From Candidatus Sulfotelmatobacter sp. (lineage in GTDB: Bacteria > Vulcanimicrobiota > Vulcanimicrobiia > Vulcanimicrobiales > Vulcanimicrobiaceae), in the NCBI GenBank assembly GCA_035504415.1, contig DATJRY010000021.1:124001-188000 (forward strand): 64,000 nucleotides of DNA, read 5' to 3'. The translations under genes were made by a program, and so were the position numbers. Below are positions 31,690 through 47,903 of the stretch, one piece after another (the stretch's first letter is position 1; the number at the start of each line of letters is the position of its first letter). The notes beneath the pieces were generated by a model. It saw only the letters and a program-made list of their open reading frames with translations, searched no databases and had not been told where the DNA came from.

Positions 31690-32364
31690 ATGGAAACGAA
31701 TCGCGCGACCTTCCTCGCAGCGGCGGCCGGAACCGTCGCACTCGCCGCGACCGGCGAGGCGCAGGCAGCGGGGACCTACGACCGGCGGGCGATGGAGGCG
31801 ATCCTCCACCGCCCGGTACGTCATCGCCACATCATCGGCGCGCCGCGGCTGAACGGGATCGCGCCGATGCGCTCGGCGGCGCACATCATGGGCGCGTACG
31901 AGTTCGCCTTCGGCGAGGGGCCCGGCACGGTCAACATCGTCGTCTCGCTGTACGGACCCAGCTCCGTGCTCGCCGTCATGAACGACGCGTTCTGGGCGAA
32001 GTACCACGCCTTCGAGCTCTCGCAGCGGCAATCCGACATGCCGCCGACGATCCTGAACTCGCACAGCAACCCGTATCTGCACGCGCGCACGTCGATGAAC
32101 CCGCACGACGATCCCGAGGACGTCAACGGCTTCTATCACGACTATTCGGTCGAGGCGGTGACGCGACGCGGCGTGCGCTGGTTCGTCTGCAACGAGGCGC
32201 TGCACACCGCCGCGCGTGAGCTCTCCGCGCTGGGCGACGGCGCGCCGGAGGCGGTGCTCGGGGCGTTGCGATCGCATCTGACCCCGGGGACGCTGATCGT
32301 CCCGTCCGGCTCGCAGGCACTGGTCGTCGCCCAGGAGGCCCACTTCACCTACCAGGCCGCCTGA
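31690..32364 (+). CDS. Exported DsrE-like protein (copy 1)
   Basis: A 224-residue protein with an N-terminal export signal (NRATFLAAAAGTVALAATGEAQA). The C-terminal half resembles the DsrE/DsrF sulfur-relay fold. After the strand TVNIVVSLYG come VEAVTRRGVRWFVCNEAL with Cys167, then GTLIVPSGSQALVVAQEAHFTY, where the VPSG...Q pattern is that of DsrE relatives. This fold assignment is an inference. A close paralogue is at 40974-41639, sharing GFYHDYS/TVEAxTRRGVxWF. It precedes the Pro-Thr lipoprotein pair by 132 bp on the same strand. Confidence 0.65.
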   Translation: METNRATFLAAAAGTVALAATGEAQAAGTYDRRAMEAILHRPVRHRHIIGAPRLNGIAPMRSAAHIMGAYEFAFGEGPGTVNIVVSLYGPSSVLAVMNDAFWAKYHAFELSQRQSDMPPTILNSHSNPYLHARTSMNPHDDPEDVNGFYHDYSVEAVTRRGVRWFVCNEALHTAARELSALGDGAPEAVLGALRSHLTPGTLIVPSGSQALVVAQEAHFTYQAA

Positions 32365-32394
32365 CCCGCGCACGTTTCGCACGAACTCTTTATG

Positions 32395-32413
32395 CTCTTT
32401 CCCAGGGGAAGAG
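32395..32413 (+). terminator. Weak hairpin after the DsrE-like gene
   Basis: CTCTTTCC-CA(G)-GGGAAGAG can form an eight-pair stem with one G-U wobble, starting 31 bp past the DsrE-like stop codon. No U-tract follows, so termination is uncertain. Confidence 0.3.
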
Positions 32414-32496
32414 ATCGGACGTCAGGGTAATACCTAGGAGAACCATCGACCGCGCTTTCGCGCGATCGGATTTCCTATTCTCGCGGAGGACCTTCG

Positions 32497-33576
32497 ATGA
32501 CCGTTCCCCAGCGTTCACGCGTAACGCTCGGGGTCGCAGTACTGCTCGGCGCCACCCTGGCCGCCTGCGGTACCACCACGACCCCGCCGCGGAACTTCCC
32601 CGCGCCGACTCCCTCGCCGGCGTCCAACACGACGACCGCGACGGTGAGCACCAGCGCGCCGACCACCTTCGCCACCGTCACGACGAGCGGCATCTCCGAT
32701 AGCGCGACGCTGCCCGCGGCGAGCACGAGCGCGACGGTCACCGAAACGATCGCGACGACGCCGTTCGGCGGGGACGCGGCCTTGAGCGCCAAGCGCGCCG
32801 CCGCCTCTCTCCGGCAGCCCGCCGACGCCGCGCTCAGCGCGACGGCCTACGTGCAATTCACCTCGACGCAAACCGTCACCGTGAACGGCACGACGACGAT
32901 CACGTTCACCCTCCCGTCGATCACCGCCGGTGACTCGTACTATCTGGCGTTCTACCAGAGCGGTGCGTGGGTCGCTCCTGCCGCCGGTCCCGGCACCGTG
33001 AGCGGCAACACCGTCAGCTTCTCCGGCGACAACGGCACGACCACGATTTCGCCGACCGCCCCGCTCGAGCTCGCGCTCTACGCGACCACGACCACCGCGA
33101 CGCCGACCCCGACGCCGACGGTCAGCCCCACGGCCAGCCCCAGTGCCACGCCGACGGCTACTCCGACCGCAACGCCAACGCCAACGCCAACGCCAACGCC
33201 AACGCCTACGCCGACGCCGACCCCGACCCCCACGCCGGTTCCGACGCCGGTCGCCTCACCGAACTCGCTCGTGTTCGACGCCAACAACCCGACGACGCAA
33301 AGCTTCACCGTCACCGAAGCGGGCGATCTCGCGAACTACACCGGCGCCATCAGCTGCAGCACCGCACCCTCCGGCGCGAACTTCGTCGCCGAGCTGACTT
33401 CGACGACCGCGACGCCGGTGCAGACCGGCTCCGGCGCAGCGACGTTCACCGTCCAGGGCGGCAACGTGCTGGGCACCTGCACCGTCACCGTGACCGATGC
33501 GAACAATGCGACGACCACCGTCGCGGTCGCCGTCGACAGCAGCACGCTCACCGTCTCCGGCCACGCGCGCCACTAG
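32497..33576 (+). CDS. Lipoprotein with Pro-Thr linker and C-terminal Ig-like domain
   Basis: A 359-residue lipoprotein. The signal peptide ends at lipobox LAAC (Cys24), followed by TTTTPPRNFPAPTPSP. Residues about 50-195 are a Thr-rich beta domain (ISDSATLPA, AYVQFTSTQTVTVNG). Residues 202-250 are a Pro-Thr repeat linker. Residues 253-359 are an Ig-like domain with two Cys (AISCSTAPSG, LGTCTVTVTDAN) and the tail SGHARH. GCGGAGGA precedes the ATG by 6 bases. It is a clear paralogue of 46803-47903. The next lipoprotein gene starts 10 bp later. Function unknown; a surface or matrix role is likely. Confidence 0.75.
   Translation: MTVPQRSRVTLGVAVLLGATLAACGTTTTPPRNFPAPTPSPASNTTTATVSTSAPTTFATVTTSGISDSATLPAASTSATVTETIATTPFGGDAALSAKRAAASLRQPADAALSATAYVQFTSTQTVTVNGTTTITFTLPSITAGDSYYLAFYQSGAWVAPAAGPGTVSGNTVSFSGDNGTTTISPTAPLELALYATTTTATPTPTPTVSPTASPSATPTATPTATPTPTPTPTPTPTPTPTPTPTPVPTPVASPNSLVFDANNPTTQSFTVTEAGDLANYTGAISCSTAPSGANFVAELTSTTATPVQTGSGAATFTVQGGNVLGTCTVTVTDANNATTTVAVAVDSSTLTVSGHARH
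33100..33249 (+). repeat. Tandem hexamer repeats encoding a Pro-Thr linker
   Basis: Fifty codons alternating Thr/Ser/Ala/Val and Pro, built from six-base units. AACGCC is repeated six times without change at 33171-33206. Unit length is a multiple of three, so slippage would change linker length without a frameshift. Confidence 0.85.
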
Positions 33577-33586
33577 GAACGCCGAC

Positions 33587-35092
33587 ATGCGATTTTCTCT
33601 CCGTAACACGATCGTCACCGGCGCGCTGCTGGCCGGCGCCGCACTCGCCGCCTGCAGCGGCGGCGGCTCCCGTGCGGCCGTTCCCACCGGTGCCGCTACC
33701 AACGCCCCGACCACCAGCAGCAGCAAAGGCAATGGCCTGAGCGGTCCGCTCGCCAAGATCACGATCACAATCCCGCGTCACGCGAGCTTCACCCACAGCA
33801 AACCAGCGGGAACCGCGCGCGCGCCGCAGGGTGTCGCCGCACGGCGTGCGCCGAAGTATGTCAGCCCCGCCACCCAGGGCCTGCAGATCACGGTCAGCGG
33901 CAACGGGACGACGCAGACCGTCTACGCCGACACCTCCGGGTCCAACTGCACCAACCTCACCTCCTCGCAGACCGGCAATACGACGGAGACGTGCACGATC
34001 GAGGTGCCGGTCGTGGCGGCGTCGGAGACGCTTACCGTCGACGACGTCGACGTCAAGCCGAACGACGACGGCAGCAGCGGCAATCCGCCCGGCTACGGCG
34101 ACGGCTTCACCGGCGGCCACGTGTTGGCGGTCGGCACGACGACGGCCACGCTGACCGCGGGCCAAACGACGCAGATCTCGCTGGTGCTCGGCCAAGTCAC
34201 CGGCGGCTTCTTCGACTGCGGAAACCTCGACGCATCGAACTCCTCAAACGCCGGCTACGACGCTACGACGGCGGACGAGACGACCGCAACGCTGCCGTCC
34301 GGGTACAACGGTGACAATAGTACGGCCCTCGGACGCCTCGTCTTCACGGCCGGCCAACCCTCTTGGATTCAACTGGTTCCCGAACTGACGGATTGGGACG
34401 ACCAAAGTCAAGGGTTTGCCTCTCCCTCGCCGGCGCTCGTCGACGTCAACGCATCGCCGGCACCGGTCACGGTGACCACGAGCCTCCAGCACGTCGGCCT
34501 CGCCGCCTCGAACGCGACGGCACCGCTCGACCCCTTCAACGAATCGCAGACCTACGTGCCGCCGCCCACCCCGCCGCCGTTCGCCTCGACGACCTCCAGC
34601 GTGTCGATCGGCGACCAGAGCTACTTCTGGATGTTCGGCTACTTCCCAGTCATCGACGTCGTCTACGACGGCTCGACCGCAGCGGTCGCCGGCACCGTCA
34701 ACGTGAACAACAACCTGACGGCGACCGACCTGTTCGACAACAATCCGTACACGTTCGTCGCGCCGTACACGGTCGCGTTCGTCTCGGCGAGCCCCACCAC
34801 GCTGACGCTCTCGCTGAGCACGAACCCCAGCGCAGAAGTGGTGGGCTCGGACTACCAAGCGGCGCTCGAGGGGATGACCTCGATCTCTCAGCCACCGAAT
34901 CACGACCAGACCGAATGCGAGACCAGCGGCGGGGTGGAGCTGGCCTCGGTCACTGCCGGCACGATGAACACCACTACCTGGCAGCAGCCGTTCACCGTCA
35001 CGGCGATGGCGACGGGCACGTGCACGTTCACCCTCATGGACGTCATCACCGACGTCGTCTCGCCGCCCGTCACGGTGACGATCGGCAGCTGA
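33587..35092 (+). CDS. Large lipoprotein of the RxPKYxS paralogue family (copy A)
   Basis: A 501-residue lipoprotein with lipobox LAAC followed by SGGG. The N-terminal domain carries the family marks: ITITIPR, RRAPKYVSPATQGLQITVSG, VYADTSG, a Cys pair (SNCTNL, ETCTIEVPVVAASETLTV) and GYGDGFTGGHVLAV. The middle is a beta-rich region with aromatic strands (SYFWMFGYFPVIDVVYDG) and a Pro-rich stretch YVPPPTPPPF. It ends with TGTCTFTLMDVIT and PPVTVTIGS. Three paralogues lie at 41644-46789 on the other strand. It forms a two-gene unit with the Pro-Thr lipoprotein and ends in a strong terminator. No known family was recognised. Confidence 0.7.
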   Translation: MRFSLRNTIVTGALLAGAALAACSGGGSRAAVPTGAATNAPTTSSSKGNGLSGPLAKITITIPRHASFTHSKPAGTARAPQGVAARRAPKYVSPATQGLQITVSGNGTTQTVYADTSGSNCTNLTSSQTGNTTETCTIEVPVVAASETLTVDDVDVKPNDDGSSGNPPGYGDGFTGGHVLAVGTTTATLTAGQTTQISLVLGQVTGGFFDCGNLDASNSSNAGYDATTADETTATLPSGYNGDNSTALGRLVFTAGQPSWIQLVPELTDWDDQSQGFASPSPALVDVNASPAPVTVTTSLQHVGLAASNATAPLDPFNESQTYVPPPTPPPFASTTSSVSIGDQSYFWMFGYFPVIDVVYDGSTAAVAGTVNVNNNLTATDLFDNNPYTFVAPYTVAFVSASPTTLTLSLSTNPSAEVVGSDYQAALEGMTSISQPPNHDQTECETSGGVELASVTAGTMNTTTWQQPFTVTAMATGTCTFTLMDVITDVVSPPVTVTIGS

Positions 35093-35154
35093 GCCCCGAG
35101 GGCCCGGCGGGGGGACCATCGGCCGAACCGAGGACGCCCTTCGGGAGAAGCGAA

Positions 35155-35208
35155 GGCCGAACCGAAACGACCCCGAGCGGGAGGGGGTCGTGAGGTTCGG
35201 CCCTTTTT
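35155..35208 (+). terminator. Strong rho-independent terminator
   Basis: GGCCGAACC (35155-35163) pairs with GGTTCGGCC (35194-35202), with an inner stem ACGACCCC/GGGGTCGT, followed by CTTTTTCTT. A second copy of the left arm, GGCCGAACC at 35121-35129, could compete for the same right arm. It ends the lipoprotein operon 32 bp before lpd. Confidence 0.85.
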
Positions 35209-35239
35209 CTTCCCACGCGTAAGGAGTCTCGTCTCAGCC

Positions 35240-36688
35240 ATGGCATCGTTCACCGTCGACGCGCTCGTCATCGGCGCCGGCCCGGGCGGCTACCACGCCG
35301 CGATCCGGCTCGGCCAGCTCGGCAAGAAGGTCGTCTGCTTCGACCGCGACGAGGTCGGCGGGGTCTGCCTGAACTGGGGCTGCATCCCGACCAAGGCCCT
35401 CCTGCACGTCGGCGAGATCACCCGCCAGATCGACCACGCCGCCGAGATCGGCCTGAAGGTCCCCAAGGCCGAGATCGACCGCGCGGGCGTGGCCGCGTTC
35501 AAGGACAAGGTCGTCAAGGCCAACGTCGGCGGCGTCAACCAGCTCTTCAAGGCCAACAACGTCGAGTTCGCCTACGGCGACGCCTCGTTCGTGAGCAAGA
35601 ACGTCGTCTCGCTCAAGAAGAAAGACGGCACGACCGACGAGTACACCGCGCCGGCGATCGTCATCGCCACCGGCTCGGCGCCGGTCGACGTGAAGGCGTG
35701 GCCGCGCGACGGCGAGACGATCATCAACAGCGACGACGCGGTCAAGCTCGAGCGCATTCCCAAGAACCTGCTGGTCGTCGGCGGCGGCGTGATCGGCCTC
35801 GAGTTCGCGACCGTCTACACGCGCCTGGGCGCGAAGGTGCTCGTCGTCGAGGCGATGCCGAACATCCTGACCGGCACGGATCTCGAGATCTCGAAGACGC
35901 TCGGCCGCATCCTCAAGAAGCAGGGCGTCGAGATCGCGCTCAACACCAAGGTCGGCGCCCTCGAGAAGACCGGCAAGCACGCGGTCAAGGCGACGATCAA
36001 CGGCGAGTTCACCAGCGGCAAGGACGAGACGCGCGAGTTCGACATGGTGCTGGTCGCGGTCGGCCGCCGCCCCGTGACCGACACGCTCAACCTTGCCGCC
36101 GCCGGCCTCGCCGTCAACGACAAGGGCTTCCTCGAGGTCGACGCGCAGCGCCGCACGACGGTGGACGGCATCTTCGCGATCGGCGACGTCGCCGGCGCGC
36201 CGCTGCTGGCGCACAAGGCGATGAAGGAAGGCGTCGTCGCCGCGGAAGTGATCGCGGGCGACCGCGCTTCGGCGTTCGATCCGGTCGCGGTGCCGAACTG
36301 CGTCTACACCGATCCCGAGGTCGCGACGGTCGGGCTGTCCGAGGAAGAGGCGAAGGCGGCCGGACACGAGATCGTCGTCGGCAAGATGGCGCTGATCGCG
36401 TCGGGCCGCGCGCGCACGATGAACGAGACCGACGGCATGATCAAGCTGATCGCCGACGCCAAGACCGACCTGCTGCTGGGCATGCACATCATCGCGCCGC
36501 AGGCGGAATCGCTGATCGGCGAAGGCGTCATCGCGCTCGAGATGGGCGCGACCGCCGAAGACGTCGGCCTCTCGATCCACCCCCATCCGACGCTGACCGA
36601 GTCGATCATGGACGCCGCCGAGTTCATCCACGGCAAGGCGATCCACATCGTCAACCCCAAGCCGAAGAAGCAGCCCGCGGCGGTCTAG
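35240..36688 (+). CDS. lpd: Dihydrolipoamide dehydrogenase (E3)
   Basis: FAD enzyme that reoxidises dihydrolipoamide with NAD+, serving pyruvate dehydrogenase and other lipoyl complexes. In the 482 residues: FAD loop VIGAGPGGYHAA, redox disulfide GGVCLNWGCIPTKAL, NAD loop VVGGGVIGLEFATVYTRLG, second FAD contact TVDGIFAIGDVAG, and active-site HPHPTLTE near 450. AAGGAG lies 13 bases before the ATG, a long spacing. It heads the block lpd-lipB-coiled coil-lipA; lipB begins 4 bp after the stop. Confidence 0.96.
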   Translation: MASFTVDALVIGAGPGGYHAAIRLGQLGKKVVCFDRDEVGGVCLNWGCIPTKALLHVGEITRQIDHAAEIGLKVPKAEIDRAGVAAFKDKVVKANVGGVNQLFKANNVEFAYGDASFVSKNVVSLKKKDGTTDEYTAPAIVIATGSAPVDVKAWPRDGETIINSDDAVKLERIPKNLLVVGGGVIGLEFATVYTRLGAKVLVVEAMPNILTGTDLEISKTLGRILKKQGVEIALNTKVGALEKTGKHAVKATINGEFTSGKDETREFDMVLVAVGRRPVTDTLNLAAAGLAVNDKGFLEVDAQRRTTVDGIFAIGDVAGAPLLAHKAMKEGVVAAEVIAGDRASAFDPVAVPNCVYTDPEVATVGLSEEEAKAAGHEIVVGKMALIASGRARTMNETDGMIKLIADAKTDLLLGMHIIAPQAESLIGEGVIALEMGATAEDVGLSIHPHPTLTESIMDAAEFIHGKAIHIVNPKPKKQPAAV

Positions 36689-36692
36689 TTGC

Positions 36693-37400
36693 ATGGCGGC
36701 GCGCGCACGGCTCCTCGATCTCGGCCGCCGGGAATACCGCCCGGTGCTGGAGCTGCAGCGCGCACTGCATGCCGCCGTCAGCGCCGGCCACGAACCGGAC
36801 ACGTGGCTGGTCGTCGAGCACGAGCCGACGGTCACGCTCGGCCGCAACGCCAAGGAGTCGAACCTGCTGCTCGCGCGGCCGCTGCTCGAAGCCCGCGGCG
36901 TGGCGGTCGTCCCGGTCGAACGGGGCGGAGACGTCACCTATCACGGGCCGGGTCAAGTGGTCGTCTACCCGATCCGCCGGCTGGCGCGCTTTCGTGAGGT
37001 CGTGCCGGTCGTCAACGCGATCGAAACCGCCGTCATCTCGACGCTGCGCCGTTTCGGCATCGTCGCGCAGCGGCGCGCCGAGCATCGCGGCGTGTACGTC
37101 GGCGACGAGGCGATCTGCGCGGTCGGGCTCGCGGTGCGCGGCATGACCTCGCTGCACGGCTTGGCCCTCAACGCCGACACCGCGCTCGACTACGACCGCC
37201 TCATCACGCCGTGCGGAACGCCGCAGTTCGGGATCACCTCGATCTCGGCGCAGCTCGGCCGCGAGGTGACGTGGGCGCAAGCGCGCGACGTGCTGATCGA
37301 GGAGCTGGCCGGCGCGTTCGCCGTCGAGTTCGAGCGCGAGACGCTCGCGCCGGGGGCGCCGCTGCCCTTGCCGGCGAATCCCGTGGTCGCGATAGCATGA
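36693..37400 (+). CDS. lipB: Octanoyltransferase LipB lacking the catalytic lysine
   Basis: Transfers octanoyl from acyl carrier protein to lipoyl domains, the first step of lipoate synthesis. The 235 residues show RGGDVTYHGPGQVVVYPI, MTSLHGLALN and the catalytic Cys174 in LITPCGTPQFGITSI. The Lys that forms the dyad (KICSLGLR in E. coli LipB) is Ala140 here: the stretch reads GDEAICAVGLAVRG. The codon is GCG, so this is not a reading ambiguity. The rest is well conserved. Its stop overlaps the next gene (ATGA). Confidence 0.92.
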   Translation: MAARARLLDLGRREYRPVLELQRALHAAVSAGHEPDTWLVVEHEPTVTLGRNAKESNLLLARPLLEARGVAVVPVERGGDVTYHGPGQVVVYPIRRLARFREVVPVVNAIETAVISTLRRFGIVAQRRAEHRGVYVGDEAICAVGLAVRGMTSLHGLALNADTALDYDRLITPCGTPQFGITSISAQLGREVTWAQARDVLIEELAGAFAVEFERETLAPGAPLPLPANPVVAIA

Positions 37401-37660
37401 GCGTGACCGACGAGCAGATCCTGGCGGGCTTTGCGAACCTGCACCAGGTCATCACCACCGGCTTCGACGCCGTGCGCGCCGAGATGGCGGCAATGCGCGC
37501 CGAACTGTGCACGGAGTTTCGTGGCGAGCTCGGCTCGCGGCTCGGCGCGTTCGAGAACCGCATGATGCGGCGCTTCGATCAGATCGACGCGCGGTTCGAC
37601 CGCCTCGAGGCGCGCGTCGACGATCACGAGCGGCGCATCTCCACCCTGGAAACCCCATGA
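37397..37660 (+). CDS. Small coiled-coil protein between lipB and lipA
   Basis: An 87-residue acidic/basic helical protein. Residues about 25-85 show heptad-like spacing (FENRMMRRFDQIDARFDRL, EARVDDHERRISTL), predicted to form a coiled coil. Both ends overlap its neighbours by four bases (ATGA), so it is coupled to lipB and lipA. One Cys lies in AELCTEF. No family was recognised beyond general resemblance to short coiled-coil proteins; a scaffold or partner of the lipoate enzymes is possible from context alone. Confidence 0.7.
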   Translation: MSVTDEQILAGFANLHQVITTGFDAVRAEMAAMRAELCTEFRGELGSRLGAFENRMMRRFDQIDARFDRLEARVDDHERRISTLETP

Positions 37661-38541: not shown

Positions 38542-38548
38542 GCCGGCG

Positions 38549-39943
38549 GTGACCGACGGGCTGCCCCTCCCGCGGCGGCGCGTCGCCTATCTCGCGCTGG
38601 CGATCTCGGTCGCCATGTCGGTGCTCGACGGCTCGATCGCCAACACGGCGCTGCCGACGATCGCGCGCGATCTGCACGCCGACGTCTCCGCTTCGATCTG
38701 GGTCGTCAACGGCTTTCAGCTGGCGGTCACGGCGACGCTGCTGGCGTTCGCCTCGCTCGGTCAGCTGCGCGGCGCGGCACGTATCTATCGTCTCGGCGTG
38801 GTCGTGTTCATGCTCGGCTCACTCGCCTCCGCGCTCTCGCACACGCTGCCGCTGCTGATCGCGGCACGTGCGTTCCAAGGCATCGGCGCGTCGGCGATCA
38901 TGTCGATCTCGCCGGCGATCCTGCGCGAGATCTTCCCGCGCGCGCAGCTGGGCCGCGCGCTCGGTCTCAACGCGCTCGTCGTCGCGACCAGCTCGGCGGC
39001 CGGCCCGACGATCGGCGGCTTCATCCTGGCACTGGCGCCGTGGCCGTGGCTGTTCGCCGTCAACGTCCCGTTCGGCGTGCTCAACATCGCCCTCAACAGC
39101 GCGCTGCCCGGGGACGAGCGCGCGGGCGGCTGGCCCGATCTCGTCAGCGTGGTGACCAGCGCGCTCGCGTTCTCGCTGGCGATCTGGGGACTCGACGGCT
39201 TCGCACGCGCCGAGCCGCTGTGGGAGATCGCGGTCTGGATTGGCGCGGGCGTCGTCGCGGCGGTCGTCTTCGTGCGGCGGCAGTTCACGCTCGAGCGGCC
39301 GATGATCGCGCTGGACCTGTTCCGCATTCCACCGTTCGCGATGGCGGCCGCGACGTCGCTGGCGACGTTCACCGCGCAAGGCTTGGCCTACATCGCCCTG
39401 CCGTTCTTCTTCCAGGAGGCGTTGGGGCGCACGCCACTCGAGTCGGGCTTGCTGCTGACGGCGTGGCCGCTCTCGATCGCCGTCGTCGCGCCGATCGCGG
39501 GACGCCTTGCCGATCGCTATCCGGTCGGCATCCTCGCGACGCTGGGCTTGGCGGTGCTCACGGTGGGGCTCGGCTCGTACGCCGGCATGCCCGCGCATCC
39601 GTCGGCGGCGATGATCGTCGGCCACGGAGTCATCTGCGGTTTGGGCTTCGGTTTCTTCCAGTCGCCGAACAACCGCGAGCTGATCGGCAGCGCGCCGCGC
39701 AGCAAGAGCGCCAGCGCGTCGGGCCTGCTGGCCGCGATCCGCGTCGGCGGTCAGACCGTCGGAACGGCGCTGGTCGCGATCGTCTTCGGCCTGTTCGGCG
39801 CTTCGATCGCGCACGGCACGCCGACCGCGACGATCGTCGGCCGCGCGGCGCCGGTCGCGCTCTGGGTCGCCTGCGGTTGCGCGGGCATCGCGACCCTGGC
39901 CAGCGCGTTGCGCCTCTTCCAGCGGGGTACACACCCGGCATGA
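38549..39943 (+). CDS. MFS transporter, DHA2 (EmrB/QacA-like) family
   Basis: Multi-helix drug-type carrier of 464 residues with about 13-14 hydrophobic segments. The opening LAISVAMSVLDGSIANTALPTI is the DHA2 helix-1 motif, followed by SIWVVNGFQLAVTATLL, then RAFQGIGASAIMSISPAIL (helix 4) and TSSAAGPTIGGFILALAPW (motif C). The start is GTG 38549, 7 bp after lipA, with no strong ribosome site. It overlaps the rhodanese-like gene (ATGA). Substrate unknown. Confidence 0.85.
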   Translation: MTDGLPLPRRRVAYLALAISVAMSVLDGSIANTALPTIARDLHADVSASIWVVNGFQLAVTATLLAFASLGQLRGAARIYRLGVVVFMLGSLASALSHTLPLLIAARAFQGIGASAIMSISPAILREIFPRAQLGRALGLNALVVATSSAAGPTIGGFILALAPWPWLFAVNVPFGVLNIALNSALPGDERAGGWPDLVSVVTSALAFSLAIWGLDGFARAEPLWEIAVWIGAGVVAAVVFVRRQFTLERPMIALDLFRIPPFAMAAATSLATFTAQGLAYIALPFFFQEALGRTPLESGLLLTAWPLSIAVVAPIAGRLADRYPVGILATLGLAVLTVGLGSYAGMPAHPSAAMIVGHGVICGLGFGFFQSPNNRELIGSAPRSKSASASGLLAAIRVGGQTVGTALVAIVFGLFGASIAHGTPTATIVGRAAPVALWVACGCAGIATLASALRLFQRGTHPA

Positions 39944-40326
39944 GCATCACGGAGATCAGCGCCGACGCGCTGCTCGGCATGGCCCCCGCCGACGTGACCA
40001 TCCTCGACGTCGGCCAACACGCCGGCAAAGCGGAGATCCGCGGCGCGGTGCGCTACCGCCCGCATGACCTGCTGCGCCCCGATCACCTCGTGCTCCCGCT
40101 CGCACCCGAGAAGCCGGTCGTCCTGTACGACGCGGACGGGCGCGGCGATCTCACTCGCAAGGTCGCGGACCGTTTGGCCTCGTCCGGCTACGGCGACGTG
40201 CGGATCCTGCTCAACGGCTTCGCGGCCTGGACCCAGATCGACGGACCGACACAAGAGGCGTCGCTCGAGCAGATGGTCCCGCCGGCCGAGCCCGACGAAG
40301 TGCAAGCGCTCGACCGCCGCCTCTGA
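39940..40326 (+). CDS. Rhodanese-like domain protein lacking the active-site Cys
   Basis: A single rhodanese domain of 128 residues: VTILDVGQHAGKAEIRGAVRY at the N-terminal strand, then KPVVLYDADGRGDLTRKVADRL where the persulfide Cys is expected, and a final strand VRILLNGFAAW. The active-site loop has Asp64 in place of Cys, so sulfur transfer is not possible by the usual route; such domains act as binding modules. It is coupled to the MFS gene by a four-base overlap and faces the truncated Pro-Thr gene across 6 bp. Confidence 0.8.
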   Translation: MSITEISADALLGMAPADVTILDVGQHAGKAEIRGAVRYRPHDLLRPDHLVLPLAPEKPVVLYDADGRGDLTRKVADRLASSGYGDVRILLNGFAAWTQIDGPTQEASLEQMVPPAEPDEVQALDRRL

Positions 40327-40332
40327 CGGCGC

Positions 40333-40824
40333 TCAACGGCGCTGTTGCGCCTGGACGCCGATGGACGTGCTGGTGACGCTGACCGGCACGCTGACCGTCG
40401 CGCCAACGGTGTCGCCGACCGTTACCGTGCAGGTACCGCTCTCGAGCCCGGGTGTGACGGTGAAGGTCACCTGCGCCCCGCTGGTCGCCGGCGTCGCGGT
40501 CGTCGGGCTGATCTCGGCGACGAACCGCTCGGCAACCGGCGACTGGTTCGCCGGACTCGGCGTGCAGCTGATCGCCGACGTGAAGCTGCCCGCATAACCG
40601 GCTTCGCTGACCGCCAGCGGCGCCGGCGTCGGCTCCGGCGAGCCGAGGAAGAACGCGATGCTGTTCGGCGTCGCGAGCGGGGTCGGCTGCGCCGCGGCAG
40701 TCGGGGTCGGCGTCGGCATCGGCGTCGGCGTAGGCGTCGGTCCGCTCAGCAGCTTGTAGAGGACCAAGATCGCCGACGTCGCGCCGGCAGTTGCCACACG
40801 ACCCGACCAAAGCGACACAAGCAC
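40333..40824 (-). CDS. Truncated Pro-Thr linker/Ig-like protein
   Basis: A 163-residue relative of the two Pro-Thr lipoproteins. It keeps only the linker (residues about 28-52) and the C-terminal domain with two Cys (AISCTPSPAN, SGTCTVTVGD), ending VQAQQRR. The beta domain and lipobox are missing. The first 27 residues hold only a weak hydrophobic stretch (ATAGATSAILVLYKLL), which might serve as an anchor. It could be a decaying copy or a secreted variant with an unrecognised signal. Confidence 0.55.
   Translation of the reverse strand: MLVSLWSGRVATAGATSAILVLYKLLSGPTPTPTPMPTPTPTAAAQPTPLATPNSIAFFLGSPEPTPAPLAVSEAGYAGSFTSAISCTPSPANQSPVAERFVAEISPTTATPATSGAQVTFTVTPGLESGTCTVTVGDTVGATVSVPVSVTSTSIGVQAQQRR
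40700..40743 (-). repeat. Tandem hexamer repeats (Pro-Thr linker)
   Basis: Six-base GGCGTC/GGGGTC-type units on the plus strand, read as Thr-Pro repeats on the minus strand. It is the shortest of three such tracts in the window. Confidence 0.75.
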
Positions 40825-40973
40825 CGATCCAAAGGGGAACGGGCAAACTGCATCCCCGTAGGTGACACTCGGTTCGCTGTCCCGCCGGACGACTCCAGCC
40901 GGCGGCAGCTATCGAAACTGAGCGGTCTCGCGACCAAGGACGAACACCCGTCGGACCGTCGAATCTGAGCGCG

Positions 40974-41639
40974 ATGACGACCCGATCGACGTTTCTTGCC
41001 GCCGGTGCGACGGTAGCCGCCGGCGCACTGGCCAGCGCCCCAACCGTAGCGGCCGACCAAGGCCACGCGATGTATCAGGTCCTCGCGCGATCGGCGCGAC
41101 ACCGCCAAGTGATCGCTGCACCGAGGCTCAACGGCGGCGCGGCACTGCGGTACGCGGGCAACACGCTCAACGCGTTCCAGTTCGCGCTGGGCCAAGGCGC
41201 CGGTTCGTGCCACGTCGTCGCGGTCTTCTACGGCACCTCGCTCGGCTACGTGCTCGACGACCAGATCTGGGCGCGCTACAAGATCTTCGACCTGCTCGAC
41301 GCCGCCGGTGACCCGCTGCCGACGATGGTGCACTCGCCGGCAAATCCGTTCTACCGCGCGCGCTCGACGATGAGCGCGACGGCGAACCCGAGCGACGAGC
41401 GCGGCTTTTATCACGACTTCACCGTCGAGGCGCTCACCAGGCGCGGCGTCTCGTGGTTCGCGTGCGACAACGCGCTGCATTCACTGAGCGGACAAATCGC
41501 ACAGATGCATGGTGCCGACGCGAGCCGCGTCTACCAGGACCTCGTGACCCATCTGGTCCCGGGCACGACGATCGTTCCGGCCGGCGTCGCCGCGATCGTC
41601 GTGGCCCAGGAGCTGCACTACGCCTTGCTGCCGGCGTAA
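40974..41639 (+). CDS. Exported DsrE-like protein (copy 2)
   Basis: A 221-residue paralogue of the protein at 31690-32364. The export signal TTRSTFLAAGATVAAGALAS resembles that of copy 1 (xRxTFLAA). Shared blocks are IAAPRLNGGAALRYAG, GFYHDFTVEALTRRGVSWF, Cys164 in FACDNALHS and GTTIVPAGVAAIVVAQELHY. The conserved Cys and the GxxIVPxG...Q pattern point to a DsrE/F-like fold, not proven. It converges on the four-gene lipoprotein operon with only 4 bp between stop codons. Confidence 0.65.
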   Translation: MTTRSTFLAAGATVAAGALASAPTVAADQGHAMYQVLARSARHRQVIAAPRLNGGAALRYAGNTLNAFQFALGQGAGSCHVVAVFYGTSLGYVLDDQIWARYKIFDLLDAAGDPLPTMVHSPANPFYRARSTMSATANPSDERGFYHDFTVEALTRRGVSWFACDNALHSLSGQIAQMHGADASRVYQDLVTHLVPGTTIVPAGVAAIVVAQELHYALLPA

Positions 41640-41643
41640 CCGC

Positions 41644-43179
41644 CTAGGGACCGACCGTCACCGTGACGGTCTGGCTCGGCACGTAGACGTAATCACTGCT
41701 CGCCATGCCGAGGTCGTAGAGGTTGAAGGTGCACGTTCCGATCGTGGTGCCCGTGATCGTATACGTCTCGACCCCCGTCGCCGAGTCGAAGGCGCCGGGC
41801 GTGACCAACGCGTCTCGGTTGTTCCCCGACGCGTCGAAGCAGCCGGCATCAGCGCCACCAAAGTTCTGGCCGCCGGACTGGACGCCCAAATTGGTGGTGG
41901 TTCCGTAGTCCGATCCGGTCACGGTAGCCGTGTTCGTGCCGGAGAGACTCAGGCTGACGGCGGTCGGTGAGACGGTGAGCGGAACGATCGTGTACGTCTG
42001 CACCGCGTTGTACGGTCCGACCGTGAACGGCGTCGAGCCGTTCGCGACGAGCGATGCGGTGGCGGTCGACGTGTCGACGTTGGAGCCGCCCACGACGGGC
42101 CCGTTCGAGAACGTGACCGTCGCTGGTGCGGTCAGCTCCCCGTCGGTGTAGAGGCCGACGGTAAAGTACTCCTGATCGAACTCGTAGCTGTCGTCGGGGA
42201 TCGAAGCGACTTGCGCGTAGCCGGACGGCGTGGACCCCGGGCTCGGGAAGGTGGGCAGATCGTTGGCGAAATTCGCGTTCTGGTACGGGAAGAGCAGGAC
42301 GTGCGATGAGGAGGAGACGGCCGTGACCGGCGCGGCGGTGCCGCTGACGTCGTAAAACGGGCGTGCGGTCGTGTCCGCGTCCTGGGTATCGTAGCCCGCT
42401 CCGTCCGCGTCTTCGAACCAGGGGAAGAGCCCGTTCGACACCGGCGTCCCGCCGGTGACGACGACGCGGACCGCGCCGCCGAAGCCTTGGTTCTCATATT
42501 GTCCCCAGTCGGCCGCGAAGTTCGTCGTCGTGTCGGAGTACATCCACACCGTCTCGTCGTTCCAATTGTCGACGACGGGCCCGAACGCGATGTTGACGAC
42601 GGTCTGGCCGCCGACCACCGTCGCCGACGCGCTGGTGGTCGGGGCATACGCCAAGATGGAGGTCCCGCTCGGGAAGCCGTCGCCCTCGTAGGAAGGCAGG
42701 CCGCTGACGGTGCCTTCGTCCGTGGGCGTCTGGTCGACCTCGTAGCCCTGGATCGACTCGGTCGCGGCGAGAGTCGGCAGAAGAATCGTGCAGGTGGAGA
42801 CGGTTCCGCTCGCCGTGCATTCGGTGGCCGAGCTGCCGGCGGAGACGTCGGCGTAGACCGTCTTCATCGTACCGCCGGCGGTGACGGTGAACGCAACGCC
42901 GGCGACGGCCCGGGAGATGTACTTCGGCGTTCGCACGGACGACGCGATGCGCCCGACGAGTGCCTTTGCCTTGGTGGGACGTACCGGCTTCGCACGGTTG
43001 ATCGTGAACGTCACGCGCACGCCGGAGCCGGCCGGTGAGACGGGGCTCGTCGTCGGCGCGGTCGAGGGTGAGGTCGGGACGGCGGCGTGCAGCGCACCGC
43101 CGCCGCCGCCGCTGCAGGCGGCGAGCAGGACAGCTGCCAGCGCCGGAACGCCGACGCGGCTGAGGTCGAAACGTACCAT
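41644..43179 (-). CDS. Large lipoprotein of the RxPKYxS family (copy B)
   Basis: A 511-residue lipoprotein with lipobox LLAAC and SGGGGG. Family marks: VTFTINR, RTPKYISRAVAGVAFTVTAGG, VYADVS, a Cys pair (ECTASG, STCTILLPTLAATESI), EVDQTPTDEG and SYEGDGFPSG. The middle region has FPWFEDADGAGYDTQ and YEFDQEYFTVGLYTDG. Like copy A it ends at a GTCTFNLYD...TVTVTVGP module and lacks the extra C-terminal Ig-like domain. It is the last gene of a four-gene minus-strand operon (14-bp gap upstream). Confidence 0.7.
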   Translation of the reverse strand: MVRFDLSRVGVPALAAVLLAACSGGGGGALHAAVPTSPSTAPTTSPVSPAGSGVRVTFTINRAKPVRPTKAKALVGRIASSVRTPKYISRAVAGVAFTVTAGGTMKTVYADVSAGSSATECTASGTVSTCTILLPTLAATESIQGYEVDQTPTDEGTVSGLPSYEGDGFPSGTSILAYAPTTSASATVVGGQTVVNIAFGPVVDNWNDETVWMYSDTTTNFAADWGQYENQGFGGAVRVVVTGGTPVSNGLFPWFEDADGAGYDTQDADTTARPFYDVSGTAAPVTAVSSSSHVLLFPYQNANFANDLPTFPSPGSTPSGYAQVASIPDDSYEFDQEYFTVGLYTDGELTAPATVTFSNGPVVGGSNVDTSTATASLVANGSTPFTVGPYNAVQTYTIVPLTVSPTAVSLSLSGTNTATVTGSDYGTTTNLGVQSGGQNFGGADAGCFDASGNNRDALVTPGAFDSATGVETYTITGTTIGTCTFNLYDLGMASSDYVYVPSQTVTVTVGP

Positions 43180-43193
43180 GACTCGGTGGTCCT

Positions 43194-44966
43194 CTACTTC
43201 CGGTGCTTAGCGGAGATCGTCGCGTCGAGGGTGGAAACCGTCACGGGGACGACGAGCGTGTTCGCCCCGCCGTCGGAGATCGTGAGCGCGCACGTCCCCG
43301 ACGCGGTCCCCGGCGCGACCGTGAACGTCGACGACGTCTGCGCCGTGATGTCCGCGACGTCGGTGGAGGGTTGGCCGGACGGGTTCGGCTGACACGTCAG
43401 CGCCGCGCTGAAGCTCGCGCTCGGATTGGACGACTCGCTCGCCGCCACGGTGGCAGCCGCCGATCCAAACTCGAGCGCAAGGGCGCTGGGCGCTGCCGCG
43501 ATCGCCGAGGCGGGTTGCGCCGCGATCGTGAGGGTCGTCGCCGGCAACATCAAGTCGGTGTCGGCATCGCCGAGCGAGAACGAGCAGCTCCCTGCCCCGA
43601 CCGGGATGACCGAGAAGGCTTGGACGCCGGTCGTCGCGTCGATCGTTCCGGACGGAACGATCACCGCGTAGCCGCCGTTGCCGTTCGCGTCGAGACACGG
43701 CGAAGCTTCGCCTCCGCTCGTCGAACCGTAGTCGGTGAGGCTCGCGCTAGCCGGCGTGCCCACCGCGAGCGACGTACTCGCGAGCGACTGCGAGAGCACC
43801 GCGAGGACAAACGGCTCGCTGTCCGTGTACGGGTTGCCGCCGTTACTGGCCGGAAAGCCGACGCTGCTCGGGCTCGCAGTAAGATTGTTCGACGCCTGGA
43901 TGGTGTAATAGGGCGTCGAAGCCGGCGGGACGCTGCCGTCGTACGAGATGGCGTAGATGAACGTCGACTCCGGAAAGAAGAAGTACCCCCACGCGTAGTC
44001 GTCGGTGGGCATCGACACCGTCTGCGCCAGGCCTCCCGACGGCGGCGGCACGATCCCGGAGCTGTTCAGGTAGACGTTCTGGTCGTTGGCGAATCCGGCG
44101 TTGCGATAGGGATACACGAGCACGTGCTGCGTCGGCGTGCTCGATCCGACGAATGTTTGGATCGTCGGCGCGACCGCCGCGCCGTTGACGTCGACGAATG
44201 ACAGCGGGACCTTATCGCCGTCGCCGGCGGATCCGTCCTGGTTTAGCCACAGCATGGCGCCGAGCGCGAGGACCGGCGTGCCCGCGACCGCGACGATGCG
44301 CGTCGTCGGATAATCCTGGGCGATCGTCGAAGCCTGCGAATAGAAGTTGAGCGGGGAGAACCCGCCGATCACCGGGGAGAGGCCGACCAGCGTTACGCCC
44401 GTCGTCCCGGACGACGCCGGCGTCACGGACCCGCTGCCGACGGCCAAGATGTTGGCCTTCGTCGCGAAGCCCGTCCCGTATCCGTTCGTCTCGTCGAGGG
44501 GCTCCTGATCGAGCTCGGTGACGGTCACCGTCTCTCCGGTACCGAGGATCGGGATCGGGACCGTGCACGTCTGTTGGTAGTTGTTACTCGCGGTTCCCGG
44601 ACCCGGGCACACGACGTTGTTCGGGACGTTCGCGACGTCGACGTACAGCGTCTGCGAGCTGCCCCCCGCGGTGATCGCGACCTCGACGCCATCGACGTTC
44701 GGGGCGAGATACTTCGGAGCACGCCGACCGGACGCGCTGGTCTTCACCGGCCACGGCGCTCCGAGCGACGAGCTTGGCTTCCTATCGATCGTGAACGTCA
44801 GCTTCGTGGTCTTCGACGACGGCGCGGAGGACGGTGCGCCGGTCGGCGTGACGGCGGGCACGCTCGGGCGGGTCGCACCACCGCCGCCCCCGCCGCCGCA
44901 GGCGGCGAGGAGCAGCGCGGCGGCGATCGAGGCCGTGCCGAACGCGAGGGTGGATCGTTGTAGCAT
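43194..44966 (-). CDS. Large lipoprotein of the RxPKYxS family with C-terminal Ig-like domain (copy C)
   Basis: A 590-residue lipoprotein with lipobox LLAAC and a Gly-run. N-terminal family marks are LTFTIDR, RRAPKYLAPNVDGVEVAITAGG, LYVDVANV, QTCTVPIPILGTGETVTV and ELDQEPLDE. The region up to about 490 ends with GSCSFSLGDADTD, where copies A and B stop. A further ~95 residues form the shared domain (ALTCQPNPSG, SGTCALTISDGG) ending ISAKHRK. AGAGG is 8 bases before the ATG, which follows copy D by 11 bp. Confidence 0.7.
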   Translation of the reverse strand: MLQRSTLAFGTASIAAALLLAACGGGGGGGATRPSVPAVTPTGAPSSAPSSKTTKLTFTIDRKPSSSLGAPWPVKTSASGRRAPKYLAPNVDGVEVAITAGGSSQTLYVDVANVPNNVVCPGPGTASNNYQQTCTVPIPILGTGETVTVTELDQEPLDETNGYGTGFATKANILAVGSGSVTPASSGTTGVTLVGLSPVIGGFSPLNFYSQASTIAQDYPTTRIVAVAGTPVLALGAMLWLNQDGSAGDGDKVPLSFVDVNGAAVAPTIQTFVGSSTPTQHVLVYPYRNAGFANDQNVYLNSSGIVPPPSGGLAQTVSMPTDDYAWGYFFFPESTFIYAISYDGSVPPASTPYYTIQASNNLTASPSSVGFPASNGGNPYTDSEPFVLAVLSQSLASTSLAVGTPASASLTDYGSTSGGEASPCLDANGNGGYAVIVPSGTIDATTGVQAFSVIPVGAGSCSFSLGDADTDLMLPATTLTIAAQPASAIAAAPSALALEFGSAAATVAASESSNPSASFSAALTCQPNPSGQPSTDVADITAQTSSTFTVAPGTASGTCALTISDGGANTLVVPVTVSTLDATISAKHRK

Positions 44967-44977
44967 CTCCTAGTCCT

Positions 44978-46789
44978 CTACTTCGTCGTCCGGTGCTTGG
45001 CGTAGATGCCGACTTCGTTCTCGGTCACCGTCAGCGGCACGCCGAGCTTGTTGCCGGCCCCGTCCGAGACCGTGACCTCGCACGCGCCGGTCGCCGAACC
45101 CGGCGTCACGCTGAACGTGACGCTCGTCGGCGACTGCACCGTATAGGCGCTGACGATCGCGACTGTGCTGCTGCTGGCGGGATTCGCGACACATGCGATC
45201 GCCGGCGGCACCGAGATCGTGCTCGTGTCCTGCACGCTCACCGTCTGCGCTCCGGCGTTGGTGACGAGGTCGAACGCGAGGCTGCTCGGGCTCGCGGTGA
45301 AGCCGGCCGGCGTGTCGTAGCCGGCGATGGTCACCGTGACGGGATTGCTGAGCACGCCGGTGTCGCCGTCCGCGACCTGGAAGGAGCACGTCCCTTGCGC
45401 GACCGGCGTGACGCTGAAGGTGTTCGCCGACGAACCGGCCGTCACGGTTCCTGCGCCGGTGCCGCTGCAGGACTCGCTCGCGCCGCCGCCCGCGAGCGTC
45501 ATCGCGGTGCGCGCTCCCGGCGCGCTGCCCATAACCGTCGCCGTGGCGCCGCTCGCCAGGCTCGCGGTGTTCGCGCTCACGCTCGCCGAGATGGGATCGA
45601 TCGCGTACGTGACCGTCGCGTTGTACGGTCCGACGGCGAACGAGCCGCTGGCGGGGTTGTAGAGCGTGCCGGTCGCCGTCGACGTGCCGACGTTCGAGCC
45701 GTTGACGATCGGCCCGTTCGAAAGGGTGACGGTACTCGGTGACGTCGACTGCCCGTCATAGTTGATGCCGATGATGAAGACGCACTCCGCCCACTCGTAA
45801 CCGTCGTTGGGAATCGTCGCGGTTTGCGCATAGCCGGGCGGCGTGGTCGACGACGGCGTCAGCGAGAGCGCCCCGGCGTCGTTGGCGAAACCGGGGTTCG
45901 CGAACGGCGCGACGGTGACGCCGGACGTCGACGAGACGAGCGTGAGCGGCGCCGCGGCACCGCTCGCATCGACGAACGGCAGCGCGACCGCGTCGGGATC
46001 GTACCAGCCACCGTCGGGGTCGGCGAACTCCGGCGTCACGAATCCCTGCGCCGGCGCACCGCTCGTGACCGCGACGCGGTCCGTCACGCCGGTGCCGACG
46101 TCGTTCCCGTTGCTCTCCACGCTGAAGGATGCGTTCGAGGTCGGGGTGTCGCCGCTGGCGGTGTCGATGCCCGGCCAGCAGTTGTACCAGCCGCCGACGA
46201 CGGCCGAGATGCCGAGCTGCACGTTGGTGACCGTGCCGGGCGTCAGCGTCGCTTGCGTGGATCCGACACCCAAGATGTTGGAGTTGGTCGGGAAGCCGTC
46301 GCCCTCGTAGGCGGGAAGCCCGTTGGTTCCCTCGTCCGTCGGCGCCTCGTCGACCTCCGTCACCGCGATCGTCTCGGAAGCGGCCAGCCACGGAATCGCG
46401 AACGTGCACGTCTCGACGCCGCCGCCGTTCGTGCACGCGGCCGAGCTCTGGGTGATGTCGACGTACTGCGTCTTCGTCGTCCCGCCGGCGGTGACCGCGA
46501 TTTGCAGACCGTCGCTAGCAGTCGAGACATATTTGGGCGACCGCTTCGCCGCGGCGCCGTGACGCGCGGCCGCCGCCGACGTCTTCTTCGGCCTCGTCGA
46601 CGCGGCGCGGTTGATCTTGACCGTCAGGCGCGCCTGCGAGCCGCTCGCCGGCGCGGCGGTCGGCGCCGAGGACGGACTCCCGCCGGTCGCGTGCGGCACG
46701 CTCGCGGTGCCGCCGCCCCCGCCGCACGCGGCCAACAGCAGCGCAGCAGCGGCCGGCGCGCTCAAGCGCGTGAGAATAAAACGCAACAT
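44978..46789 (-). CDS. Large lipoprotein of the RxPKYxS family with C-terminal Ig-like domain (copy D)
   Basis: A 603-residue lipoprotein with lipobox LLAAC. Marks: LTVKINRA, KRSPKYVSTASDGLQIAVTAGG, QYVDITQ, ETCTFAIPWLAASETIAVT, EVDEAPTDEG and AYEGDGFPTNSN; it is closest to copy B in these blocks. The core ends GTCSFQVADGDTG. The shared C-terminal domain follows (AIACVANPAS, TGACEVTVSDGAG), ending IYAKHRTTK. AGGAG sits 9 bases before the ATG, right at the stop of the Pro-Thr lipoprotein gene 13 bp upstream. Confidence 0.7.
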   Translation of the reverse strand: MLRFILTRLSAPAAAALLLAACGGGGGTASVPHATGGSPSSAPTAAPASGSQARLTVKINRAASTRPKKTSAAAARHGAAAKRSPKYVSTASDGLQIAVTAGGTTKTQYVDITQSSAACTNGGGVETCTFAIPWLAASETIAVTEVDEAPTDEGTNGLPAYEGDGFPTNSNILGVGSTQATLTPGTVTNVQLGISAVVGGWYNCWPGIDTASGDTPTSNASFSVESNGNDVGTGVTDRVAVTSGAPAQGFVTPEFADPDGGWYDPDAVALPFVDASGAAAPLTLVSSTSGVTVAPFANPGFANDAGALSLTPSSTTPPGYAQTATIPNDGYEWAECVFIIGINYDGQSTSPSTVTLSNGPIVNGSNVGTSTATGTLYNPASGSFAVGPYNATVTYAIDPISASVSANTASLASGATATVMGSAPGARTAMTLAGGGASESCSGTGAGTVTAGSSANTFSVTPVAQGTCSFQVADGDTGVLSNPVTVTIAGYDTPAGFTASPSSLAFDLVTNAGAQTVSVQDTSTISVPPAIACVANPASSSTVAIVSAYTVQSPTSVTFSVTPGSATGACEVTVSDGAGNKLGVPLTVTENEVGIYAKHRTTK

Positions 46790-46802
46790 CGCTGAGCGCT
46801 CC

Positions 46803-47903
46803 TTACTTCTGCTTGCGGTGCGTGCCGAACACGCCCAGATTTGCGAGTGAGCTCGTCACCGGTACGACGGTCGAGCCGTTGTTGCTGTCGGTGATCGTCA
46901 AGTTGCACGAGCCCGTCTCGTCGCCGGGCGCCACCATGAAGAACGTGACGCCGTTCGTCGGACCCGTCAGGGTCGCGACCGCCGTTCCACTTTGACCCGA
47001 GGGATTTTCGGTGCACGCGATGGCCGCGCTGAACGTGCCGGCGTAGTTCGGCTCGCTGACACTGACCGGGGCCGGCGTCGGGCTCGACGAGAGGTCGAAG
47101 TTGACGGCGGTCGGATCTGCCAGCGGCGTCGGCACCGGGGTCGGGGTCGGGGTCGGGGTCGGCGTCGCGGTGGGCGCGATCGTCGGCGTCGGCGTCGCGC
47201 TCGGCGCGGCCGTCGGCGTCGGCGTTGCGGTCGGCGTCGCCGTCGAGCTCGGGGTGGGCGTTGGCGTCGGACCCGTCGCGGCACCCTCGTCCCACAGCGC
47301 GAGCACCACCGGCTCGCCCGCCGCGATGGCCAGCGTCCCCGGTGCGGCGGCGAACGAGACGGTCGTCCCGCTCACCGTTGCCGGCCCGTCAAAGAAGTCG
47401 TTCCAGCTGCCGTCCGTCGCTTGCGCGTACAGCGCCAGCTCGTAGTCGTCGCCCGCGACCGCGCTGGGGACCGTGAACAAGAATGCCGGCACCCCGCTCA
47501 GCGTCACGCTCTGCGTTGCGGCGAACTCGACGAAGACGATCGGCGCGGACGACGCGCTCGCCGTGCGGCGCGCGGCCGCCGGCCCGCGCGCCACCGAGCT
47601 GAACGTCGCGGTCCCGCTCGGCTGCGTCGGCGTGATCGTCTCGGTCAACGTCGCCGCGACGTTTGCCGTCGGCAGCATCCCGGAGACCGAGACCGTCCCG
47701 TCCGAAAGCGGGGGCAGCGCGACAGTGCTCGTCGTCGACGTCTGCACGGTCTGCACGTTGGACGGGCCTGCCGTCGGCGTCGGCGTCGGTGCGGCGAGAT
47801 CGCGCGGTGGGGTCGTTCCCGATCCGCCACAGCCCGCGACGAGCGCGGCGCACAAAGCAAGAGCAGGGACAACCATAAGGGTTGGCCGGGGCAAGAACGG
47901 CAA
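46803..47903 (-). CDS. Lipoprotein with Pro-Thr linker and C-terminal Ig-like domain (paralogue)
   Basis: A 366-residue lipoprotein, first gene of the four-gene operon. TTG 47901-47903 is supported by GAGGA about 7 bases upstream; ATG at 47874-47876 is an alternative nine codons in. The lipobox is LVAGC, followed by TTPPRDLAAPTPTPT, as in the protein at 32497. A beta domain (APIVFVEFAATQSVTLSG, YELALYAQATDGSW), a long Pro-Thr linker, then the shared domain (AIACTENPSG, GSCNLTITDSN) ending FGTHRKQK. Function unknown. Confidence 0.75.
   Translation of the reverse strand: MPFLPRPTLMVVPALALCAALVAGCGGSGTTPPRDLAAPTPTPTAGPSNVQTVQTSTTSTVALPPLSDGTVSVSGMLPTANVAATLTETITPTQPSGTATFSSVARGPAAARRTASASSAPIVFVEFAATQSVTLSGVPAFLFTVPSAVAGDDYELALYAQATDGSWNDFFDGPATVSGTTVSFAAAPGTLAIAAGEPVVLALWDEGAATGPTPTPTPSSTATPTATPTPTAAPSATPTPTIAPTATPTPTPTPTPVPTPLADPTAVNFDLSSSPTPAPVSVSEPNYAGTFSAAIACTENPSGQSGTAVATLTGPTNGVTFFMVAPGDETGSCNLTITDSNNGSTVVPVTSSLANLGVFGTHRKQK
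47127..47272 (-). repeat. Tandem hexamer repeats (Pro-Thr/Ala linker)
   Basis: About 48 codons of Thr-Pro, Ala-Pro and Ser-Pro repeats on the minus strand (GGGGTC and GGCGTC units on the plus strand). It occupies the linker of the 366-residue lipoprotein and parallels the tract at 33100-33249. Confidence 0.85.

Follow-up and report, generated by a model that had tools for sequence, protein, structure and literature searches.

Recurrent association of DsrE-like proteins with immunoglobulin-like lipoproteins in Eremiobacterota, a candidate sulfur-handling gene module

We analysed two copies of a gene module in a 64,000-nucleotide stretch of a Candidatus Sulfotelmatobacter sp. genome (G000:C21:124001-188000), hereafter the window. 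The host genome measures 4.17 Mb and belongs to a phylum named Eremiobacterota in our analysis. Each module combines a gene for an exported DsrE-like protein with genes for two types of lipoprotein, namely a Pro/Thr immunoglobulin (Ig)-like lipoprotein (PT) and an RxPKYxS lipoprotein (RPKY), the suffixes L and R denoting the left and right module. The modules flank a lipoate locus. The analysis suggests that the three protein types probably form a functional unit.

The nine genes implied by an initial annotation of the DNA were translated and placed (Table 1), giving two DsrE-like, two PT, four RPKY and one truncated PT gene. All genes and strands were found as described there, with the same three protein types on both sides of the lipoate locus in opposed orientation, and the gaps within the lipoprotein units measured 10, 13, 11 and 14 bp, in agreement with the 10-14 bp it had given. 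The truncated relative that it had mentioned corresponds to a PT gene devoid of its N-terminal half, which has likely decayed. The RxPKYxS motif holds for the RPKY set, except that RPKY_R2 reads RxPKYxA, and proteins of other genera carry RAPKFID or SRRMYVS instead. PT_R is annotated with a TTG start, an internal ATG being a possible alternative. The modules differ little in guanine plus cytosine content (68-69%) from the whole window (69.9%), so that base composition does not point to recent transfer.

Table 1. Genes of the two modules, with positions in the window.
Gene	Position	Strand	Description
DsrE_L	31690..32364	+	exported DsrE-fold protein (predicted), remote relative of the thiosulfate dehydrogenase (TSD) family, invariant Cys167
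PT_L	32497..33576	+	lipoprotein; N-terminal domain, then a Pro-Thr linker, then an Ig-like C-terminal domain carrying a basic tail
RPKY_L	33587..35092	+	large lipoprotein, Ig-like, carrying the RxPKYxS motif; 10 bp 3' of PT_L
truncated PT	40333..40824	-	no lipobox, N-terminal half missing; Pro-Thr linker and C-terminal Ig-like domain retained
DsrE_R	40974..41639	+	second predicted DsrE-fold, TSD-related protein, invariant Cys164
RPKY_R3	41644..43179	-	Ig-like lipoprotein, convergent with DsrE_R, 4 bp gap
RPKY_R2	43194..44966	-	Ig-like lipoprotein, extra C-terminal domain in common with PT
RPKY_R1	44978..46789	-	Ig-like lipoprotein, extra C-terminal domain in common with PT
PT_R	46803..47903	-	opens the lipoprotein operon of the right module

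The distribution of the module was surveyed with a profile of the RPKY N-terminal domain (N-domain) over 292 genomes, and matches above 150 bits were considered strong. Strong matches were restricted to four genomes, all from the bacterial family of the host (four of 99 genomes) and representing four genera, and the next matches fell below 50 bits. In all four genomes, PT and DsrE-like genes adjoin RPKY, which defines five module loci: two in the window genome and one each in G028, G039 and G015. A tree of 95 DsrE-like proteins groups the five module members in a single clade (support 100/98). The initial annotation had asked whether the three types recur as neighbours, and they do, always with PT and with members of this one clade. 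Gene order and strand differ among the loci: DsrE is divergent from PT, itself followed by RPKY, in G028, and DsrE, PT and RPKY follow one another on a single strand in G039. In G015, contig C4 ends just past RPKY and contig C1 starts inside a PT gene, convergent with DsrE and separated from it by 2 bp; the two contig ends presumably join. The G028 and G039 modules share common surroundings with a rapZ block on one side, different from those of the window. Given this variable order and strand and the differing context, the association exceeds frozen synteny.

The initial annotation had also held that relatives scattered singly would speak against a link between the three types. Strong RPKY proteins were never found apart from PT and DsrE, whereas the wider DsrE-like family is, from sequence comparisons, widespread and mostly devoid of PT/RPKY lipoproteins. 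Relatives of DsrE_R occur in 79 of 148 genomes, and a third DsrE-like gene of the window genome (C17:313 kb) has no lipoprotein genes beside it. A scan of genome contigs with the module DsrE alignment matched one record, that of G028, and DsrE_R had no match among plasmids. A sixth locus, in which a second DsrE gene of G028 stands beside a gene for an Ig and Vgb-lyase protein, falls elsewhere in the DsrE tree and possibly reflects chance; it was discounted because RPKY-like genes are so common that, as a rough estimate, about one such neighbour is expected among 95 loci. In G028 (L053:11732-15000) and G039 (L054:7928-11261), genes for a 540-amino-acid protein, a 130-amino-acid Cys-containing protein and a small protein lie near DsrE together with a rapZ-like gene, and this rapZ-like region repeatedly carries the DsrE-like gene family.

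None of the nine window proteins had an acceptable match in Pfam, and a PF02635 match was found in one of 31 relatives of the DsrE-like proteins, at E=0.079. The NCBIfam TSD model NF052225 matched every one of the 31 family members examined (best E=5.5e-33). The two window proteins scored 49-53 bits, against a curated cut-off of 300 bits, and the module DsrE-like proteins are, at the sequence level, remote relatives of TSD rather than members. A full TSD (387 bits), in which a twin-arginine motif is clear, is encoded by G016, of the same bacterial family (L236:1480-2286; G016:C8:55.8 kb), and its alignment with the module proteins revealed W99, R157-G158, C164 and Q212 in common, Cys164 (DsrE_R numbering) being invariant in all 31 relatives. 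The five module-clade proteins have export-type N-termini, each with a single arginine.

A search of the PDB with the sequence of a single DsrE-like protein returned nothing, and a search with the DsrE-like alignment returned weak DsrE matches along with chance matches to viral capsids. The AlphaFold2 model of DsrE_R (predicted local distance difference test, pLDDT, 90.6; predicted template-modelling score, pTM, 0.84) had 1l1s, 2pd2, 3pnx and 2fb6 as top Foldseek matches in the PDB, all from the DsrE superfamily; 8uja, a designed cage protein that equals 2pd2 in chain length (108 residues), was also among the matches. The DsrE-like proteins are hence predicted to adopt the DsrE fold, and the label proposed by the initial annotation is appropriate at this level. 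Cys164 is located in the model at the junction of strand E160-164 and the next helix (H165), a position that we take to be the site of the DsrE active-site cysteine.

Among the lipoproteins, PT_L, PT_R, RPKY_L and RPKY_R1 to R3 display, behind a hydrophobic stretch, a lipobox (LAAC, VAGC) with a terminal Cys. The protein types had been described as unrelated; alignment instead revealed that the PT proteins, the truncated PT, RPKY_R1 and RPKY_R2 have in common an Ig-like domain at the C-terminus that bears a basic tail, residues 485-600 of RPKY_R1 being 41% identical to the truncated PT in a single-protein search (E=4e-6). Invariant cysteine pairs are found in the PT C-terminal domain (C41/C86) and in the RPKY N-domain (C43/C52). 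The AlphaFold2 model of RPKY_R3 is all-beta and of modest confidence (pLDDT 64, pTM 0.68), and it matches tandem Ig proteins, including titin Ig and the surface-layer protein SbsC, with low TM-scores. PT and RPKY look like surface-display proteins. NCBIfam matched PT with TonB and RPKY with fusolisin; both matches were rejected, as they look like low-complexity or signal-peptide matches. At any score, the RPKY N-domain profile matched 43 of the 292 genomes, mostly with low scores and with ten matches in the window genome; the remote relatives often carry a Vgb-lyase or NHL propeller in place of the later Ig-like domains. The window genome holds two operons of PT-like and RPKY-like genes that lack DsrE, on C17 (L221:5252-12724) and C20 (L230:5625-8601), one of which also encodes Vgb-lyase/NHL propeller lipoproteins and a peptidase of the kumamolisin type.

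The neighbourhood of the wider DsrE-like family was surveyed at 95 loci across the phylum. The most common neighbour, found at 39 loci within 2.5 kb and mostly as the next gene, encodes a SoxA/TsdA-type cytochrome c, a representative of which carries PF21342; a YeiH-family putative sulfate exporter is also present at 14 of these 39 loci. A ModA/CysP-like solute-binding protein occurs at 13 of the 95 loci in all and TauE/SafE at seven. At the G015 module, SsuA-family binding-protein and permease genes lead in tandem into the DsrE gene, and the second locus of G028 has a gene for an SsuA-family binding protein that overlaps with the beginning of DsrE, these SsuA-family matches lying below equivalog or subfamily cut-offs. 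A SaoX/SaoP identity for the G015 ATP-binding cassette transporter genes was dropped, the scores being far below cut-off and the SaoX/SaoP system being a selenoprotein one. The initial annotation knew of no described function for the set; its DsrE-like member is a remote relative of TSD, and across the phylum sulfur genes are found near its family. In two genomes (L057:8081-10037, L062:7311-9288), a DsrE-like gene outside the modules faces a gene for a conserved exported protein, followed by one for a TlpA-like thioredoxin.

The TSD of Acidithiobacillus ferrooxidans, a protein of about 25 kDa, converts thiosulfate to tetrathionate; the enzyme purified early on needed no cofactor, and its structure and mechanism were described as open in a 2019 review (PMC6335251). 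Its gene AFE_0042 adjoins doxDA and the gene for the solute-binding protein AFE_0043 (PMC2754497), and genes of the DsrE-like family likewise often stand beside one for a solute-binding protein. The window DsrE proteins resemble this TSD in being exported, single-domain and about 25 kDa, with a remote profile match over residues 29-221; they differ from it by their score, their single-arginine N-terminus and their Ig-like lipoprotein partners. The resemblance to the DsrE/DsrF-like superfamily (PF02635; 1l1s, 2pd2, 3pnx) and to DsrE3A of Metallosphaera cuprina concerns the predicted fold (template-modelling score, TM-score, 0.73-0.75 by target length for the two best natural targets), a Cys that ends the central strand and a C-terminal PGxxxVPxGV...Q motif. 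The module proteins are larger (221-224 amino acids) and exported, without an acceptable PF02635 match and with no TusA-type partner seen. Compared with the TsdA/SoxA diheme cytochrome c systems, a link exists through the cytochromes adjoining the wider family, whereas the module itself has no cytochrome and TsdA is an unrelated protein. The module lipoproteins share with the RPKY/PT-like operons of Eremiobacterota the lipobox, a Gly/Ser/Thr-rich tether, the Ig-like N-domain and the adjacency of PT and RPKY, but in module RPKY proteins additional Ig-like domains take the place of a propeller, and these proteins make up a separate high-scoring group tied to DsrE.

The initial annotation had explained the paired modules by co-duplication at the lipoate locus. 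Left and right proteins are indeed similar far above chance at the sequence level: DsrE_L and DsrE_R are 44% identical (E=2e-54), PT_L and PT_R 42% identical across 351 columns, and RPKY_R1 matches the other three RPKY proteins at E=5e-91, 3e-60 and 7e-47. An in-place duplication of the three-gene set, with a tie to lipoate-dependent sulfur oxidation, would account for the presence of the same three types around the lipoate locus in opposed orientation, and DsrE3 genes elsewhere adjoin dihydrolipoamide dehydrogenase (PMC4175335). This scenario is nevertheless highly implausible. DsrE_L is closer to its G028 counterpart (67% identity) than to DsrE_R (42% in this comparison), and PT_L clusters with the G028 PT (support 96/94), so the modules are very probably not local co-duplicates; the RPKY tree is poorly resolved, except that R1 is joined with R3. 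DNA-level repeats between the modules are restricted to Pro-Thr codons and short diverged stretches, which excludes a recent duplication. The segment comprising trehalose genes, lpd, lipB, lipA and gdhA is kept in four congeners (G008, G001, G005 and G007), where both modules are missing and each of the two sites is either empty or taken by small genes of no relation. In G015 and G039, lpd-lipB-lipA stand apart from the modules. No link of DsrE to lipoate or Hdr genes was found across the genomes compared. The lipoate genes, conserved in congeners that lack the modules, are thus bystanders, and the two modules, already diverged, occupy nearby sites through either separate gains or losses in congeners.

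The best-supported reading, to which we assign a probability of roughly 0.4, is that the unit acts on a sulfur compound through cysteine chemistry, either at the cell surface or close to it. The module would act as one extracytoplasmic unit, in which the exported DsrE-fold protein would rely on its invariant cysteine for the binding or transformation of a sulfur compound, either thiosulfate/tetrathionate or a sulfonate, by analogy with DsrE3A of Metallosphaera, which forms Cys-S-thiosulfonates with tetrathionate (PMC4175335). The smaller PT, with its Pro-Thr spacer, and the large, multi-domain RPKY would serve as scaffold or capture partners at the cell surface; physical interaction, an outer-membrane location, the substrate and the reaction are what we infer here. 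Several observations weigh against this reading. The five module loci come from one clade, so that the pairing amounts to a single event that later persisted. The phylum commonly carries PT-RPKY-like operons that lack DsrE. With scores so far below the TSD cut-off, the reaction of the DsrE-like proteins may differ, and their export route is unsure as the twin arginine is missing in the clade. Neither window module adjoins a SoxA/TsdA, YeiH or TauE gene, and the sole SoxA/TsdA-type cytochrome of the window genome is encoded on another contig.

The main rival supposes that a DsrE gene and a lipoprotein operon were merely co-inherited or co-transferred, the lipoproteins being adhesin-like or coat-like and DsrE acting alone. 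The abundance of PT/RPKY-like lipoproteins, the DsrE-free operons of the window genome and the origin of the five loci in one association all favour this possibility, and transfer would fit both the patchy spread (4/99 genomes) and the four congeners whose lipoate segment lacks the modules. Yet the pairing is found at five of five loci within the clade despite divergence to about 40% identity and altered order and strand, the chromosomal context of the window is unlike the G028/G039 region, and the PT and DsrE trees are concordant where resolved; we regard such passive linkage as possible but doubtful. A periplasmic thiol carrier role for the DsrE-like protein, serving thiol/disulfide quality control of the Cys-bearing lipoproteins rather than energy or sulfur acquisition, would make sense of the invariant cysteine pairs of PT and RPKY and of the one invariant cysteine kept in the DsrE-like proteins. 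It is improbable, considering that the wider family adjoins SoxA/TsdA-type cytochrome, YeiH, TauE and sulfonate-type solute-binding protein genes, that no Dsb or lipoprotein-processing gene was found among the recurrent neighbours of the 95 loci, and that similar lipoprotein operons exist without DsrE.

A more specific version of the sulfur-handling reading proposes a surface-anchored complex built on DsrE-fold, TSD-type cysteine proteins, one clade of which gained dedicated Ig-like lipoprotein partners that place the chemistry outside the cell; we consider it rather unlikely. If true, it would give TSD a testable cysteine mechanism, and the recurring lipoprotein partners would carry such sulfur chemistry to the cell surface. 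Placing the TSD family in the DsrE superfamily, with an invariant cysteine, would make a thiosulfonate-type mechanism directly testable. The first cultivated member of the phylum encodes a Sox system and did not grow on thiosulfate in reported tests (PMC9758169).

Several genes around the modules deserve mention. A rhodanese-like gene (window 39940-40326) adjoins the right module; its product has an Asp (YDADGRG) at the expected position of the active-site Cys and is therefore probably not a sulfurtransferase. Congeners have a TauE/SafE gene between lpd and lipB (L214:11767-12537) and a DoxX gene between rhodanese and gdhA (L214:16262-16792), neither of which is present in the window. An 87-amino-acid gene (window 37397-37660) overlaps the ends of lipB and lipA, and stays near the lipoate genes in congeners, with a shifting position.

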